In this document: piece after piece, positions 15,327 to 22,461 of the stretch
Layout of the letters: each line of letters starts with the position of its first letter
Position numbering within the stretch: position 1 is the stretch's first letter
Origin: Gemmatimonadaceae bacterium
GTDB taxonomy: Bacteria > Gemmatimonadota > Gemmatimonadetes > Gemmatimonadales > Gemmatimonadaceae
Assembly (NCBI GenBank): GCA_020852815.1
Contig: JADZAN010000030.1
Coordinates: forward strand, 1 to 64,000
Direction: 5' to 3'
DNA length: 64,000 nt
Program-made: the position numbers and the translations under genes
Notes under the pieces: generated by a model
The model's database searches: none
Told to the model about the DNA's origin: nothing
What the model saw: the letters and a program-made list of their open reading frames with translations, nothing else

Positions 15327-16175
15327 CTAACGCACGATGCGGTGCCCCCCCGCATACACGGTTGCGCTGGTATCGCGCACGAGCGCCACCAGCGTCAACC
15401 CCGAAGCCTCCGCCATGCGGATGGCAAGCCCGGTGGGGCGCGAGACGGCTGCCAGGAGCGGCACGCCGCAGGCCGCCGCCTTCTGCACCAGCTCGAAGCT
15501 CGCTCGGCTGGTGACGATAGCGAAGCCGGTGGTCGCGTCGATGGCGCCGCGCGCCAGCGCGCCGAGCACCTTGTCGAGGGCGTTGTGCCGCCCCACGTCC
15601 TCGCGCACCAGCTGCAACGTCCCGTCGGCTTGCGCCCAGGCGGCGCCGTGCACGGTGCGCGTGGCCTGGTTCAGGAGCTGCGCCTCCTGTAGCGCCGCCG
15701 CCGCACGCCAGAGCGCGTCGGGGGCAATGCTGAGCGAGGCGGTCACGGCGACCGCCGGGCGCACCGCGTCGTCGATCGCCTCCACGCCGCACAGCCCGCA
15801 CCCGGTGCGCCCGCTGATGGCGCGCGCGCGGCCCGCCAGCCGCTCCGAGACCGCCACGGGGACGTCGAGCAGAACCTCGACGCCGCGCCGGTGTCGCACC
15901 ACCTCGAGGTGGGAGATCTCCTCGGCGCGGGCAATCCCTTCGCTCACGGTGAAGCCGACGGCGAAGTCCTCCAGGTCGGAGGGAGTGCACATCATCACGA
16001 CGTGCGCTCTCCTGTTGTAGGCCAGGGCGACCGGGACCTCCTCGGCGACCACGGCCTCGCCCGCGGTGGCCCGATCGCCGTCGAGAAAGGTGACCGGAAA
16101 GCGCGTCTGCGGCGCGAGGAAGCCCGAGGCTCGCACCTCCCCCGGATCAGTCACGCCCCTCACCTGCGGCGGCAT
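15327..16175 (-). CDS. fdhD: Formate dehydrogenase maturation sulfurtransferase FdhD
   Basis: 282 residues from the ATG at 16175, or 275 from a GTG at 16154. The GTG has the better ribosome binding site (AGGTGAGG) and overlaps the upstream stop by only 8 bp, so it may be the true start. FdhD signature: EEVPVALAYNRRAHVVMMC, PSDLEDFAVGFTVSEGI and the sulfur-carrying loop GRTGCGLCGVEAI, whose Cys pair transfers sulfur from IscS to the molybdenum cofactor of formate dehydrogenase. Last gene of the formate dehydrogenase operon, which fits its role exactly. Confidence 0.95.
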   Translation of the reverse strand: MPPQVRGVTDPGEVRASGFLAPQTRFPVTFLDGDRATAGEAVVAEEVPVALAYNRRAHVVMMCTPSDLEDFAVGFTVSEGIARAEEISHLEVVRHRRGVEVLLDVPVAVSERLAGRARAISGRTGCGLCGVEAIDDAVRPAVAVTASLSIAPDALWRAAAALQEAQLLNQATRTVHGAAWAQADGTLQLVREDVGRHNALDKVLGALARGAIDATTGFAIVTSRASFELVQKAAACGVPLLAAVSRPTGLAIRMAEASGLTLVALVRDTSATVYAGGHRIVR

Positions 16176-17124
16176 CCTTCGGTTGAACGAACTGCCACCC
16201 GAAGCGCCCCTTCACGCAGAGGTTGCCCAGGGTGATGTCGTTCTCCAGCGGCGAGGTGGCCTTCACGATGACGTTGTCCTGCACGTGCAACGAGAGCGTA
16301 CAGCCCACGCCGCAGTACGGGCAGATGGTATCGGTCGTTTGCTGCACCTCGGGCTTCCACGCGCCGGCGGCGCGCAGCTCGTGCTCCGACGTGGCCATCA
16401 ACGCACCAGTGGGGCAGACGGCGATGCAGTTGCCGCAGTACACGCACGCCGAGCCGGGGAGCGGGACGGCAAACTCGGTGGATATGCGCGCGTCGAAGCC
16501 GCGGCCAGCGACGGCGATGGCGAAGGTGTTCTGGTGATCGGGACCGCACGCCTCCACGCACTTGTAGCAGAGGATGCACTTGGCGTAGTCGCGTACGTAC
16601 AGCTCGTTGTCGACCTTGACCGGTTGCGCGACGGTGGCCGCCGTGCCTGGCGCGGCGACCACATGGTGTCCTGGGATGCTGGCGTCCCGCACACCATCGT
16701 TTGACGGCGGGGCGCTCTCTCCAAAACGCGCGGGCTGTGCGCCGTACTCGTCGATGAGTTCCGCGAGCCCCGGCGCCGTCGACAGGTCGACCGACGAGGC
16801 GAGGAGTTCGAGCACCAGGCGACGTGAATGCCTCACCCGCGCGCTGGCGGTGAGGACCTTCATCCCCCCCTCCACCGCGCGGGAACAGGCGGGAGCGAGG
16901 ACGCGCGCCCCCTCGATCTCCACCACGCAGAGACGGCAGGCGTTGACCGGCTCCAGCGTCTCGAGGTAGCAGAGCGTGGGGATCTCCTTCCCTAACGAGC
17001 GCGCCGCCTGCAGGATCGTCGTCCCCTCCTCCACCGTGCACGACTGTCCGTCGATGGTGAGCGCAACGGGGGGGCGCGCAGGGCGCGACGGGCGCGCGAG
17101 TTGGACCAGCGGGGTAGCAGTCAT
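16147..17124 (-). CDS. Formate dehydrogenase alpha: separate Fe-S module
   Basis: 325 residues. In order: a [2Fe-2S] ferredoxin-like domain (residues ~15-100; Cys in TLCYLETLEPVNACRLCVVE and further on at APACSRAV), a His-Cys region as in NuoG (RHSRRLVLELLAS), two 4Fe-4S motifs (AKCILCYKCVEACGP and SACVYCGNCIAVCPTGAL), then the molybdopterin-oxidoreductase Fe4S4 domain (TICPYCGVGCTL, GNLCVKGRFGW). In FdsA/FdhF-type subunits this would run on into the catalytic domain, but the protein stops ~10 residues after GRFGW. The catalytic part is encoded by the gene at 18996-20957. The ATG overlaps the stop of the flavin-subunit gene (ATGA). Confidence 0.92.
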   Translation of the reverse strand: MTATPLVQLARPSRPARPPVALTIDGQSCTVEEGTTILQAARSLGKEIPTLCYLETLEPVNACRLCVVEIEGARVLAPACSRAVEGGMKVLTASARVRHSRRLVLELLASSVDLSTAPGLAELIDEYGAQPARFGESAPPSNDGVRDASIPGHHVVAAPGTAATVAQPVKVDNELYVRDYAKCILCYKCVEACGPDHQNTFAIAVAGRGFDARISTEFAVPLPGSACVYCGNCIAVCPTGALMATSEHELRAAGAWKPEVQQTTDTICPYCGVGCTLSLHVQDNVIVKATSPLENDITLGNLCVKGRFGWQFVQPKDAAAGEGRD

Positions 17125-18974
17125 CGTCCGACCTCCTCGTACAGCCGCAAGCGCTTGATGGCCGACTCCACGGCGGAGTATGCCGTCTGCCCCAGCCCGC
17201 AGATGGAGGCGTCGCGCATGGCGACGCCGACGTCGTCCAGCAATGCCAGCTCGGCGGCCACGCCGCCTAACGTCTTGCCGGCGGCAATGCGGTGCAGCGC
17301 CTCTTCCTGCCGCACCGTCCCCACGCGGCAGGGGACGCACTGCCCGCACGACTCGTCGCGGAAGAAGCCGGCAATGCGGCGCACCATGTCGTGCAGGTCG
17401 TCGCCCGGGCCACAGACCATGACGACGCCGGAGCCTAACGTGGTGCCGGCAGCGCGCGCGTCCTCGAGCGTGAGCGGGAGGTCGATCTCGTCGCCGCGCA
17501 CGAAGGTCCCGGCGGCGCCGCCCAGCAGGATGGCCGTCGGCTCGGTGGCCCCGGCCATCGCCAGGAGGTCGCGCAGCATCGTCCCGAAGGGGACTTCATA
17601 GACGCCGGGGCGCGACACTGCCCCGCTGAGGCAGAAGAGGCGCGTCCCCGTGGAGCCCTGCGACCCGGTGGCCGCGTACGCCGCGCCACCGAGCCGCACG
17701 ATGGGGAGAACGTTGGCGAGCGTCTCCACATTGTTCACGACCGTTGGCTTGCCAAAGAGCCCCACGTGCACGGGGAACGGCGGCTTGCTGCGCGGCTCGC
17801 CGCGCTTACCCTCGATCGACTCGAAGAGGGCGGTCTCCTCGCCGCAGATGTAGGCGCCGGCGCCGCGGCGAATCTCGATGCGGAAGTCGCCTAACAACTG
17901 CGCCGCCGTGCACGCGTCGATGGCGTTCTGCACGCGCACGGCGGCAAGCGGATACTCGGCGCGCACGTACAGGAAGCCCACGTTGCACCCGGTGGCGAAG
18001 CCGGCAATCGTCATCGCCTCCACAATCGCGAACGGATCCTGCGTGAGGAGCACACGATCCTTGAACGTGCCAGGCTCCGACTCGTCGGCGTTGCAGACCA
18101 GGTAGTGCGGCGTCTCCGGGCGGGCGCGCACGGCCTCCCACTTGCGTCCGGTGGGAAAGGCGGCGCCGCCGCGCCCCACCAGACGGGCGTCGTTGAGCTG
18201 GGCAATCACCCACTCCGCCCCCTTCGCGCGCGCCCTGGCCAACGCCTCGAAGCCACCGGCGGTGCGATACGCATCGAGTGACGTCGGGTCCACCGTTCCG
18301 CAGCGCGCGAGCAGGACGAGCGCGGGATCGCCACGCTGCGGGAGCACCGCGGTGCCTGACGAGTCGAGCCCCGGATCGTGCCGCGTGAGGGCGTGTACCG
18401 CCGACGACGGCGTGACGTTGCCCAGGAGGACTTCGCGCGGCGACTCCCCCGCCTCGGTGTAGAGCGCGGCCGGGGCGTGGTCACACATCCCGAGGCAGGG
18501 GGAGTGCATCCACGCCACGTCGCCCTCGCCTAACGCCACACGCTCGCCGCGCGGCTCGGCGGCAATCGCGGCGCCACAGGTACGCTCGAGCTCGTGTTCG
18601 ATGGCGTGCGCGCCGCGGTTGCGGCAGGCGATGTCGTCGCACACGTGGAGGACGCGCTTCGCTCGCGGCGCGGTAGCCAGCAGCGCATAGAACGTTGCCA
18701 CCCCCCAGGCTTCGGCTGGCGGGACGGAGAGGCGGCGACAGACGTAGCCCATCCCTCCTTCGCTGATCCAACCGATGCGTTGCTGCAGCGCCTGCAGCGC
18801 GGGGACGAGGAGGTGGCGCTGCTCGCGCGCGGCGGCGCCACCAACGGCGGTGTGCGCATCGCGCTCCGAGCCGCGTTCTCCTCCATCCCACGACGACGCG
18901 GGGGGGCCGAGGAGCGCGTCGATCGCGTCTCGTTCGGCGGCCGTCGGTTCCGCGTCGATATGGCGAATGTCCAT
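17121..18974 (-). CDS. NAD-linked formate dehydrogenase beta (NuoE-NuoF fusion)
   Basis: 617 residues fusing two modules. Residues ~30-200 are a NuoE-like thioredoxin-fold [2Fe-2S] domain (HVCDDIACRNRGAHAIE ... HSPCLGMCDHAPAAL). The rest is NuoF-like: FMN/NADH site GRGGAAFPTGRKWEAV, CNADESEPGTFKDR, GAGAYICGEETAL, and the 4Fe-4S motif ESCGQCVPCRVGT. This is the diaphorase subunit of soluble NAD+-dependent formate dehydrogenases and takes electrons from the Fe-S chain to reduce NAD+. It sits between the catalytic gene (22-bp gap) and the Fe-S module gene (4-nt overlap), so the three proteins probably form one complex. Confidence 0.92.
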   Translation of the reverse strand: MDIRHIDAEPTAAERDAIDALLGPPASSWDGGERGSERDAHTAVGGAAAREQRHLLVPALQALQQRIGWISEGGMGYVCRRLSVPPAEAWGVATFYALLATAPRAKRVLHVCDDIACRNRGAHAIEHELERTCGAAIAAEPRGERVALGEGDVAWMHSPCLGMCDHAPAALYTEAGESPREVLLGNVTPSSAVHALTRHDPGLDSSGTAVLPQRGDPALVLLARCGTVDPTSLDAYRTAGGFEALARARAKGAEWVIAQLNDARLVGRGGAAFPTGRKWEAVRARPETPHYLVCNADESEPGTFKDRVLLTQDPFAIVEAMTIAGFATGCNVGFLYVRAEYPLAAVRVQNAIDACTAAQLLGDFRIEIRRGAGAYICGEETALFESIEGKRGEPRSKPPFPVHVGLFGKPTVVNNVETLANVLPIVRLGGAAYAATGSQGSTGTRLFCLSGAVSRPGVYEVPFGTMLRDLLAMAGATEPTAILLGGAAGTFVRGDEIDLPLTLEDARAAGTTLGSGVVMVCGPGDDLHDMVRRIAGFFRDESCGQCVPCRVGTVRQEEALHRIAAGKTLGGVAAELALLDDVGVAMRDASICGLGQTAYSAVESAIKRLRLYEEVGR

Positions 18975-18995: not shown

Positions 18996-20957
18996 TCAGG
19001 TCGTGGAGGTCGCGAGCGGCGCGTCGTGCAACGCCGCGGCAGCGACCTTCTCGACGCGTACGGCGCACGCCTTGAACTCCGCCGTCCCCGACCGCGGGTC
19101 GGAGGCGTCGATAGTGAGGGCGTTGGTGAGCACGTCGTCGGGAAAGTGGAACGTCATGAAGACCAGGTGTTCGCGCAGCCCTTCATCGATACGCGCCGGC
19201 GCCACCACGCTCCCGCGCCGCGACGTCACGCGCACCATGTCGCCGGTGGCGATCCCGAGGAGAGCGGCATCTTCCGGGGAGAGGTCGAGCGTCTCGCCGG
19301 TGTGCAGCGGCGAGTCGTAGGCCGTGGTCTGCACGCCGGTGTTGTACGATTCCAGACGCCGCCCAGTCGTCAGGAGCAACGGATAGTCGGCGTCGCGCTC
19401 TTCGAACGGCGGGGAGTGGTGCACCACGCTGAACGGGGCCGCGCGCCCCACGCGCGGGACCTGCCACAGGCGCCCATGCAGGAAGGTCGCTCCCGGATCC
19501 GATTCGTCCACGCACGGCCAGCGGATCCCACCTAACGACTCGAGGCGCTCGTACGTCATCCCGCCCACGAAGGCCGGGGCGAGCCGCCGGACCTCGTCCC
19601 ACACTTCATTCGCCGTCGGCGTCGCCCAGTCGTGCCCCATGCGGCGCGCCAGCTCGGAGAGGATCCACAGCTCGTCGCGCGCCCCCTCGGGCGCCTGAGC
19701 CGCCTTGCGCACGCGTTGCACCCGGCGCTCGGAGTTGGTCACCGTCCCCTCTCCCTCGCACCAGGTGGCGGCCGCCGGGAGGACCACGTCGGCCAACTGC
19801 GCCGTGCGGGTGAGGACAATCTCCTGCACCACGAGGTGATCGAGCGAGCGCAGTGCCTGCTCCACGTGATTGGCGTCGGCGTCGGACTGCATCGGGTTCT
19901 CCCCAATGCAGAGCAGCGCCTTCATTTCACCCGCGGCCATCGCGTGCAGCATCTGCGTGAGGTTCTTCCCGTAGCGCGGGGTGATCTTCGTCCCCCACGC
20001 CGCCTCGAAGCGCGCGCGCGCCTCGTGGTCCTGCTCGATGTCCTGGAAGCCGGCGAGCTTGTTGGGAATCGCCCCCATGTCGCCCCCGCCCTGCACGTTG
20101 TTCTGTCCGCGCAGCGGGTTGCAGCCGGAGCCCCACCGCCCCATGTGCCCCGTGAGGAGGGCGAGGTTGATGAGGGCAAGGACGTTGTCGACCGCGTTGT
20201 GGTGCTCCGTGATGCCAAGCGTCCAGCAGATCATCGCGCGTTCCGCCCTGGCAAAGGCGTGCGCCGCCTCGCGAATCACGTCGCCGGGGATGCCGGTGAT
20301 GGGCTCCGCGTATTCCAGCGTGTACTGCTCCACTGCCGCCTTGTAGGCCTCGAAGCCTTCCGTGGCGTTGGCAATGAAGGCTTCATGGTGCAGCCCCGCA
20401 TGGATGATTTCGCGCGCCATCGCATTGGCGAGCGCGATATCGCTCCCCACGCGCAGCCCGCACCAGACGTCGGCCCACTGTGCGCTGGCCGTACGCCGAG
20501 GATCCATGACATAGAGGCGCGTGCCGTGATGGCGAATGCCCTTGAGGAGATGATGGAACCAGATCGGGTGCGCCGCACGGGCGTTCGATCCCCAGAGGAG
20601 CACCACATCGGCGTCCTCCACCTCACGGTAGGAATTCGTCCCCCCACCCGCCCCGAACACCGTCGCCAGACCGACGACGCTGGGGGCGTGTCAAGTCCGA
20701 TTGCAGCTGTCGACGTTGTTGGTGCCGAAGACGGCGCGCGTGAGCTTGGCGGCGAGGAAGTTCACCTCGTTCGTGCTCTTGGAGCAGGAAAAGGTCCCGA
20801 TCGCGTCGGGGCCGCGCGTGTCACGAACGCGAAGGAAGCCGGCGGCGGCTCGGTCCAGCGCCTCGTCCCACGAGGCGGGGCGCAACTCGCCCTGGTCGCG
20901 GACGAGCGGTTCCGTGAGCCGTGCATAGGGGCGCGGGGCGTAGCGACGACGGGTCAT
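18996..20957 (-). CDS. Formate dehydrogenase catalytic subunit, selenocysteine-containing
   Basis: 653 codons including an in-frame TGA at 20691-20693 (codon 89) that I read as selenocysteine. The residues around it are DSCNRT-U-HAPSVVGLATVF, matching the active-site U/C-H-A/G-P-S motif of formate dehydrogenases. The frame stays open on both sides, and both halves show family sequence: before it, PASWDEALDRAAAGFLRVR; after it, VVLLWGSNARAAHPIWF, YVMDPRRTASAQWADVW, GRWGSGCNPLRGQNNVQGGG and LFMTFHF-type C-terminal molybdopterin-binding sequence. A naive reading would give an 88-residue fragment and a separate 554-residue gene. ATG at 20957 is preceded by GGAGA. It lacks the usual N-terminal Fe4S4 domain, which is encoded at 16147-17124. 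Confidence 0.9.
20649..20693 (-). promoter_or_regulatory. SECIS-like hairpin at the UGA codon
   Basis: Directly after the TGA (minus strand) an imperfect hairpin can form. The lower stem is CGCCCC with GGGGCG. The upper stem is CGTCGTC with GGCGACG (7 bp, one G-U pair). The apical loop is GGTCT. From my memory of E. coli fdhF, the GGUCU sequence begins 18 nt after the UGA; here it also begins 18 nt after the UGA. This is the SelB-binding type of bacterial SECIS. Folding was done by eye. Confidence 0.85.
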
Positions 20958-21112
20958 GCGGGGTCTCCGGTGTGCGTGCGAAGCGGATGTGAGGATGTTG
21001 GAAGGAGGGCGGTGGGGATGCAAGGCTTGACGCGCACGGGAGGGGCGACGCTGGGCGCGCCGGGGGTGTTCACGCCCCCGGAAAGGGTGAGGCGCTGGGC
21101 GCCGAATGCTCG
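20958..21112. other. Upstream region of formate dehydrogenase operon
   Basis: 155 bp between the metalloprotease stop and the fdhA start; both genes are on the minus strand. It must contain the operon's leader unless it is co-transcribed with the upstream gene. I see a ribosome binding site (GGAGA) about 9 nt from the ATG but no clear sigma-54 or sigma-70 promoter pair. Confidence 0.4.
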
Positions 21113-21805
21113 TTAGGGCCAGCGCCGCGTCAGGCGCTGCTCGTCGGAGCGCGTGAGGGGGAAGAAGCGCGCGCTGTCCGAGGCAAAGTCCGCCGGGCGG
21201 CACGAGGCGGGGCGGCCGCACATCAGTTTCGTGACATCACCGTTGTGGGCAAGGCCGAACACGTGCCCCAGTTCGTGCGCCACCACGTTGCGTACCGTGT
21301 TGGGGAGCGACAGCGGGAGGATGTCGGCGCGACGCAGCCCGACCATCCCGCGACCGCCCTCGCGCCAGGGGACGCTGAACGAGATCAGGTCGGTGCGCGA
21401 GAACGCGATGACGATATCGGTGGGTCGCTCGGCCAGGCGGGCACGAAGGCGGAAGGTGGCGGGGCCGATGCCGATGGGGGCCTCGCGACTGGCCGCGCGA
21501 AGGAGGTCATCCGAGAGCGAGTCGTCGATGATGACAAGTCCGGTGAGACGCGTTCGCCGCTGGAGGCGCCCGAACTCGGAGTTCCAGTGGTTGAGGGCCT
21601 CGAGGGTGGGGCGAAGGCGCGGATCGGTCGGGGAAGAGAGGATGGTGACACGGAGCAACGGGCCGCCGACATCGTGTACGAGCGCCGTCTCGCGCACGGG
21701 ACCGTGTGCGCGGAACCAGATCCAGGTTGCAGCTGCGAGCGCGACGCCGACGCCGGCGATGCCGGCCACTCGGCGGCGCGCTCGGGACTGTTGTTTCGCG
21801 GGCAT
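21113..21805 (-). CDS. Membrane-anchored or secreted matrixin-like metalloprotease
   Basis: 230 residues. The N-terminus has a basic patch and a hydrophobic helix (VAGIAGVGVALAAATWIWF) that is a signal anchor or uncleaved signal. The zinc site is VVAHELGHVFGLAHN, the HExxHxxGxxH motif of metzincins, followed by KLMCGRP in place of the usual Met-turn. The rest resembles matrixin-like small proteases. The start at 21805 places the hydrophobic helix at residues ~13-31. Probably acts in the periplasm or outside the cell. Substrate unknown. Confidence 0.85.
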   Translation of the reverse strand: MPAKQQSRARRRVAGIAGVGVALAAATWIWFRAHGPVRETALVHDVGGPLLRVTILSSPTDPRLRPTLEALNHWNSEFGRLQRRTRLTGLVIIDDSLSDDLLRAASREAPIGIGPATFRLRARLAERPTDIVIAFSRTDLISFSVPWREGGRGMVGLRRADILPLSLPNTVRNVVAHELGHVFGLAHNGDVTKLMCGRPASCRPADFASDSARFFPLTRSDEQRLTRRWP

Positions 21806-21843
21806 ATGTGGCGTGTGGTTGGACGAGATTTCCTCTCGGCCGC

Positions 21844-22461
21844 TCACCTCGCAACCCGCCTCGCCTCCATCGTCCAGAAGTCGCGCATCCAGGTCTTGCC
21901 GCGATCGAACGTCGCGTCGGCACGCCAGAGGAAGCTGTCGGGGCGGATGGCAAAGTATCGAAAGCGCACGAGCATGTCGCCGTACCACTCCGTGAGCACG
22001 CGCGAGTCGCCGTCGCTCCACATCAGGCCGGGCTGCCACGCGCCGCGCCGAGTGTCGATGCCTTGCATCTCCCAGATTCTCCGCGCCGGGTTGAACGCCC
22101 GGTACGTCCAGGTCCCCGCGTCCCACGTCAGGGTTGGGTCATCCGGGCGCCAGTGATCCTCGAGGAGGACACCCTTGCCGTCGGTGGCCTTCTTCGAGAA
22201 GACCCAGTGCCCCTTGAACGGGGGCGCGAAGCTCCCGTCGTCGTTCCGGTTCTGGAAGGTGAACTCCCACGTCCCGATGAGGAAGTCGAAGTCGGTCGCG
22301 GCGCTCTGACCCGTTAGGGTGTCGCCGACCGCGACGTTGGCGCCTAACGTGTCCGGCAGTGCAATGGCCCGCGGTGCTCGGCGCGCGTCCTGGGCCTGGA
22401 GCGTCGTGCTGAGGGCGATGACTGCGCAGGCGAGGGTAAGGGCGTGAATGGCGTGGCGCAT
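21844..22461 (-). CDS. Secreted DUF1579-like protein
   Basis: 205 residues with a signal peptide (HALTLACAVIALSTTLQAQ, cleavage after LQA). The mature part has the pattern of lipocalin-like DUF1579/SnoaL-neighbour proteins: FDFLIGTWEFTFQNRNDDG, GHWVFSKKATDGKGVL, and repeated Trp-rich strands (WTYRAFNPARRIWEMQGID, ADATFDRGKTWMRDFW). These families are usually measured as beta-barrels of unknown function. Located 38 bp upstream of the protease gene on the same strand, so possibly co-transcribed. Confidence 0.75.
   Translation of the reverse strand: MRHAIHALTLACAVIALSTTLQAQDARRAPRAIALPDTLGANVAVGDTLTGQSAATDFDFLIGTWEFTFQNRNDDGSFAPPFKGHWVFSKKATDGKGVLLEDHWRPDDPTLTWDAGTWTYRAFNPARRIWEMQGIDTRRGAWQPGLMWSDGDSRVLTEWYGDMLVRFRYFAIRPDSFLWRADATFDRGKTWMRDFWTMEARRVAR

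Follow-up and report, generated by a model that had tools for sequence, protein, structure and literature searches.

Closest described systems

In the formate dehydrogenases (FDHs) of solved structure that best match the enzyme described here, one polypeptide bears both the metal site and the first iron-sulfur cluster. Methylorubrum extorquens MeFDH1 has a fused diaphorase chain, a one-chain alpha subunit and a cysteine (Cys) at the active site. In the FDH of R. capsulatus, the direct electron wire runs through clusters A1-A2-A3-A5-B6, while the His-ligated cluster A4 lies off this path at the dimer interface (PMC7171172). The conserved FDH residues near the metal are a His and an Arg (PMC8808070). 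Division of a chain of this superfamily between genes is known from formylmethanofuran dehydrogenase FwdB/FwdD, in which another subunit takes the place of the C-terminal part (PMC7171172).

The locus analysed here lies in a window (the whole stretch of DNA that was analysed) of 64,000 nucleotides and very probably encodes a soluble, cytoplasmic, NAD+-linked Mo/W formate dehydrogenase with selenocysteine (Sec) and a split, rearranged alpha chain. The Sec part of this reading is well supported, and it is the predicted split and rearrangement of alpha that is new.

Organization of the locus

The genes and elements assigned to the locus are as follows:

15327-16175, minus strand: fdhD, FDH sulfurtransferase/chaperone (PF02634, 2.3e-69)
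16147-17124, minus strand: Fe-S subunit, 325 aa, with predicted [2Fe-2S], two [4Fe-4S] and a C-terminal Mo-proximal [4Fe-4S]
16183-16341, minus strand: Molybdop_Fe4S4 domain of the Fe-S subunit, residues 262-314, CPYCGVGC...CVKG (PF04879, 7.5e-17)
17121-18974, minus strand: NuoE-NuoF fusion (diaphorase: [2Fe-2S], FMN, NAD, [4Fe-4S]), 617 aa
18996-20957, minus strand: predicted Sec catalytic subunit (bis-MGD, domains II-IV), 653 aa, lacking the N-terminal [4Fe-4S] domain (TIGR01591, PF00384 and PF01568)
20649-20688, minus strand: predicted bacterial SECIS hairpin, core 20662-20678, apical GGTCT 20668-20672 (folding and comparison)
20691-20693, minus strand: TGA as putative Sec codon (residue 89, ahead of His90); all readable Gemmatimonadota copies have TGA here
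20964-20968, minus strand: Shine-Dalgarno-like GGAGA ahead of the ATG at 20957, favouring the short N-terminus

The order of genes in the operon is catalytic (Sec), NuoE-NuoF fusion, Fe-S chain and fdhD, with an overlap of 4 bases (ATGA) between the NuoE-NuoF and Fe-S genes and of 29 bases between the Fe-S gene and fdhD. The gene upstream of the operon (21113-22126, minus strand) encodes a zinc-protease-like motif, VAHELGHVFGLAH; its Pfam matches (matrixin, reprolysin) are all below threshold.

Putative selenocysteine codon and predicted SECIS hairpin

Apart from one TGA, the reading frame is open from the ATG at 20957 as far as its stop codon, which ends at 18996. This TGA (20693-20691, minus strand; codon 89) falls on the site at which formate dehydrogenases carry Sec or Cys (NRT-U-HAPSV), and its reading as Sec gives a 653-residue protein with Sec89 in the context CNRT-U-HAPSVVGLATVFG. 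Without recoding, a mechanical ORF caller yields two ORFs, 20691-21221 and 18996-20660, which is the splitting that the original prediction expected of standard annotation. Both halves match TIGR01591 (formate dehydrogenase alpha) in one frame, in agreement with the claim that family sequence flanks the TGA on both sides. The GGTCT was likewise found where it had been placed, starting 18 nt downstream of the TGA and lying within the apical loop of the hairpin; the GGUCU hairpin of E. coli fdhF lies at the same distance from its UGA. The span originally named, 20649-20957, does hold the part of the gene ahead of the TGA together with the hairpin, but the gene and the operon run on to 15327.

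Folded as a 47-nt RNA, the hairpin reaches -27 kcal/mol, whereas shuffled sequences average -19.5 (z = -2.7) and 3 of 200 of them fold equally well; the one weak Rfam match in the stretch, SECIS_3 (18 bits, with gathering set at 63), is uninformative. The folding of a single sequence is modest evidence; the comparative test, for which 103 unique relatives (72 TGA copies and 31 Cys copies) were available, is strong. The sequence GGTCT is kept in 72/72 TGA copies and in 0/31 Cys copies. The Gly codon of the loop is GGT in all 72 of the former and in none of the 31 latter, every one of which has GGC, GGG or GGA (Fisher 5e-27, a value that overstates independence because the counted sequences are kin); the Sec/Cys label switches once on the tree. 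Among all Gly codons, GGT makes up 11% in TGA genes and 5% in Cys genes. Pairing of the 6-bp stem is complete (100%) in TGA copies, as against 62% in Cys copies; five TGA copies show a compensatory change from C-G to G-C, and another stem pair varies among TGA copies as U-G, U-A or C-G. The hairpin thus appears to be conserved beyond coding need in TGA copies, and UGA at codon 89 is probably read as Sec, as the original prediction of a Sec formate dehydrogenase with an fdhF-like SECIS had proposed on the strength of the TGA and hairpin to which the 72/72 conservation and the Sec machinery are now added.

Selenocysteine machinery in the genome and the phylum

The genome of 5.38 Mb (completeness estimate 100%) encodes SelA (1.5e-138), SelB (2.6e-90, above the cut-off) and SelD (3.6e-115), as well as a tRNA-Sec of 68.5 bits adjoining selD; all the genes on which the original prediction had made its case depend (selA, selB, selC, selD) are therefore present. 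The selD gene has an in-frame TGA of its own at the expected active-site position (RCAG-U-AAKLGPGDL). The selD match and the tRNA-Sec occupy L010:1501-2415 and 2568-2660 (G000:C10, about 314600-315760), the tRNA-Sec lying ~150 bases past the matched part of selD.

SelA is present in 190 of the 249 Gemmatimonadota genomes sampled, and Sec is therefore common in the phylum. A strong tRNA-Sec match was obtained in 184 of the 249, counting only matches at E<1e-11; weaker ones were left out because they occur everywhere, even in control genomes without SelA. Sec use is a phylum-wide trait of Gemmatimonadota, and the earlier impression that it is out of place in such genomes does not hold. A transferred operon, offered as a possible reason for Sec here, was rejected as the cause, the machinery being phylum-wide. 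No description of Sec use in Gemmatimonadota was found in the open-access literature. Sec is carried by more than one FDH type in the phylum. A second, unsplit Sec formate dehydrogenase type with the same GGTCT occurs there (L146, L147, L148), and other unsplit types use Cys. Among genomes with TGA copies of the catalytic gene, SelA was matched in 32 of 36, the four others presumably reflecting draft gaps, as compared with a full SelA in 16 of the 31 genomes with Cys copies (p = 0.001).

The split alpha subunit

The catalytic chain corresponds to TIGR01591 positions 52-672 with 649.8 bits, which is below the NCBI cut-off of 666.25 bits for this family. Positions 1-52 score 48.1 bits in the third operon gene, and a whole-genome search also placed them there, at the C-terminal end of its product. 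Aligned with R. capsulatus FdsA (6TG9), the Fe-S chain covers residues 17-307 and the catalytic chain residues 307-932. The alpha subunit is thus apparently split into two complementary pieces: the catalytic chain is without the N-terminal [4Fe-4S] domain of an FDH alpha subunit, and alpha is not the single chain of the FdsA type. Alignment of the read-through protein with FdhF/FdsA, as originally suggested, confirmed the family, but placed the N-terminal [4Fe-4S] domain in another gene of the operon.

The split was examined in 109 relatives of the catalytic gene, most of them at 61-83% identity, and is no peculiarity of a single assembly. The Fe4S4 motif CxxCxxGC is found in the catalytic frame of none of the 109, as opposed to 18/18 other FDHs of the phylum that were sampled, and CxxCxxGC...CxKG is present in 66/66 Fe-S chains with a readable C-terminus, mostly less than 30 aa from the stop. 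The order catalytic, NuoE-NuoF, Fe-S was seen in every locus long enough to show it. A wrongly assigned start as the reason for the missing N-terminus was rejected, since no Fe4S4 motif occurs in the frame upstream, which in many relatives is open for less than 30 aa. In unsplit FDHs of Gemmatimonadota the Fe-S part is fused ahead of the catalytic part, usually behind the diaphorase gene, and the split therefore seems to be a rearrangement as well. Four unsplit FDHs (L139, L140, L150, L154) share an insert immediately ahead of the catalytic match (PKGPLS..V.GERR..PGGLVDYDEV). The open-access literature yielded no account of the split alpha arrangement.

Distribution and phylogeny

The split arrangement is common to many soil and water bacteria. 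Relatives were found in MAGs of Gemmatimonadota, Actinomycetota, Planctomycetota, Chloroflexota, Acidobacteriota, Armatimonadota and Eisenbacteria, and in cultured Amycolatopsis, Nonomuraea, Kutzneria, Saccharopolyspora and Nocardiopsis. In Gemmatimonadota the distribution is patchy (30 of 249 genomes, with TGA in all readable copies), and about two dozen of the 198 sampled Actinomycetota genomes have copies at >=59% identity.

In a tree of FDHs (53 rows, mixture model) the split copies form one clade (100/100), the sister of which (100/100) consists of Actinomycetota FdhF-type Sec enzymes with a fused Fe4S4 domain and the same GGTCT; the remaining unsplit FDHs fall outside both. Since unsplit enzymes flank the split clade on either side, the best reading is that the division of alpha is derived and that Sec predates it. 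Cys arose once, within the actinomycete part of the split clade, with loss of the SECIS loop there. The cultured Allonocardiopsis opalescens DSM 45601 (L078:8001-9890) has kept the TGA, the hairpin loop and SelA, and its closest relatives have Cys. Planctomycetota MAG copies (L065, L066, L067, L069; ~74% identity to the window) nest among those of Gemmatimonadota; because of this and of the patchy distribution, some transfer or misbinning is likely.

Active site and proposed electron transfer

Sec89-His90 and Arg283 (in RGQNNVQGGGDMG) are invariant. The model predicted for the catalytic chain (pLDDT 73.8) has FDHs as its top Foldseek matches, with TMq of about 0.8; that of the Fe-S chain (pLDDT 49.9) is unusable. 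Motifs for the proximal [4Fe-4S], two further [4Fe-4S] and a [2Fe-2S] are present in the Fe-S chain, as is the [4Fe-4S] domain of NuoF in the fusion chain. The cysteines of the proximal cluster and the lysine of CxKG, the residue that stands between cluster and pterin in FdhF, are invariant. The motif of the His-ligated A4 cluster is absent from all 66 split-clade copies; its loss was rejected as a mark of this clade, many unsplit FDHs of the phylum being without A4 too. As the motifs of the direct wire are kept and A4 is off the path, a complete wire is possible provided that the chains dock. The dimer contact is likely to differ from that of the R. capsulatus enzyme.

We infer Sec insertion, docking, the metal, NAD+ use and the direction of the reaction as follows. 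SelB and tRNA-Sec would decode the UGA at codon 89 as Sec, guided by the hairpin directly downstream, and Sec89 would ligate Mo or W, the metal site being sulfurated by FdhD. Alpha would be made as two polypeptides, a catalytic and an Fe-S chain, which would have to dock in order to rebuild the subunit, the C-terminal domain of the latter bearing the metal-proximal [4Fe-4S] and the conserved CxKG lysine. Electrons would then pass from the metal to the proximal [4Fe-4S], on to the two [4Fe-4S] and the [2Fe-2S] of the Fe-S chain, and through the [4Fe-4S] and FMN of the NuoE-NuoF chain to NAD+. The locus does have the NuoE/NuoF-like diaphorase of NAD+-dependent FDHs, and it is this similarity that suggests NAD+ as the acceptor.

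Alternative explanations

The fact that ORF callers split the gene would agree with the TGA being an ordinary stop, whether in a pseudogene, through a sequencing error or between two separate genes. However, the same TGA and hairpin are shared by 72 unique sequences of several phyla, whose flanks are conserved at 61-83%, the Sec machinery is present, and Cys stands at the TGA site in a single nested clade, the copies of which have lost the hairpin loop; such a stop has next to no chance of being the right explanation and is already refuted by the comparison. As for the split, it would be only apparent if the Fe-S chain belonged to another enzyme (e.g. a hydrogenase) and the catalytic chain worked without a proximal cluster or with some other partner. 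The Fe-S chain indeed also resembles the N-termini of HydA, HoxU and NuoG, and docking is a deduction, yet its Molybdop_Fe4S4 domain complements the missing part of the catalytic chain and belongs to this operon in all relatives that extend far enough, with invariant cysteines and CxKG, all of which makes an unrelated Fe-S chain very improbable.

It is extremely unlikely that the enzyme is a Sec molybdoenzyme acting on another substrate, as a nitrate-reductase-like or other activity: NasC, NasA and NapA models match as well, but FDH alpha is the best match by far, the nearest structures are FDHs, and Sec-His, RGQNNVQG and FdhD are hallmarks of FDHs. An FDH working mainly as a CO2 reductase, or feeding an acceptor other than NAD+, is unlikely; FDHs of such build are reversible, and RcFDH reduces CO2 with NADH (PMC7171172), while the NuoE-NuoF chain is like the NAD+-linked FdsB/FdsG partners.

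Significance

With an NAD+-linked Sec formate dehydrogenase of divided alpha as the preferred reading, it seems rather probable that the split enzymes make up a widespread, undescribed FDH class, whose catalytic selenoprotein is a cluster-free docking module and receives the metal-proximal [4Fe-4S] in trans, from a distinct electron-transfer subunit. With the cluster provided in this way, the two parts could mature separately and possibly exchange partners. Stable separation of cluster and metal site in Gemmatimonadota, Actinomycetota, Planctomycetota, Chloroflexota and Acidobacteriota would amount to a two-part FDH made by nature, in which the metal site could be investigated both in the presence and in the absence of the first electron acceptor. 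In cultured actinomycetes the clade also has a natural replacement of Sec by Cys, accompanied by loss of the SECIS loop; with cultured Cys members and one cultured Sec member, A. opalescens, at hand, a direct comparison is practical. The enzyme is hidden twice from standard annotation, by its putative Sec codon and by the divided domain.

Comparison with known formate dehydrogenases

R. capsulatus FdsGBACD (PDB 6TG9/6TGA) has the same modules and, judged by motif equivalents of A1, A2, A3, A5 and B6, the same metal-to-FMN wire, and an FdhD-type maturation factor is shared. FdsA, however, is one chain with Cys, whereas the operon described here encodes a two-chain alpha with predicted Sec, in the order catalytic, NuoE-NuoF, Fe-S, with NuoE and NuoF fused and A4 absent. 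The top structural match of the catalytic model is M. extorquens FDH1 (7VW6, 8J83). Escherichia coli FdhF (FDH-H, 1AA6/1FDO) resembles the catalytic chain in Sec, GGUCU hairpin and catalytic fold, but has an N-terminal [4Fe-4S] domain of its own, and its partners are those of formate hydrogenlyase, not NuoEF. The fused FdhF-type enzymes of Actinomycetota (L161-L167), which form the sister group, share Sec and GGTCT with the split clade, yet carry Fe4S4 at the N-terminus of the same chain and have fdhD in front. FwdB/FwdD is divided at the opposite end, and the cluster remains on the catalytic chain, whereas in the enzyme described here it would be contributed by the Fe-S chain.
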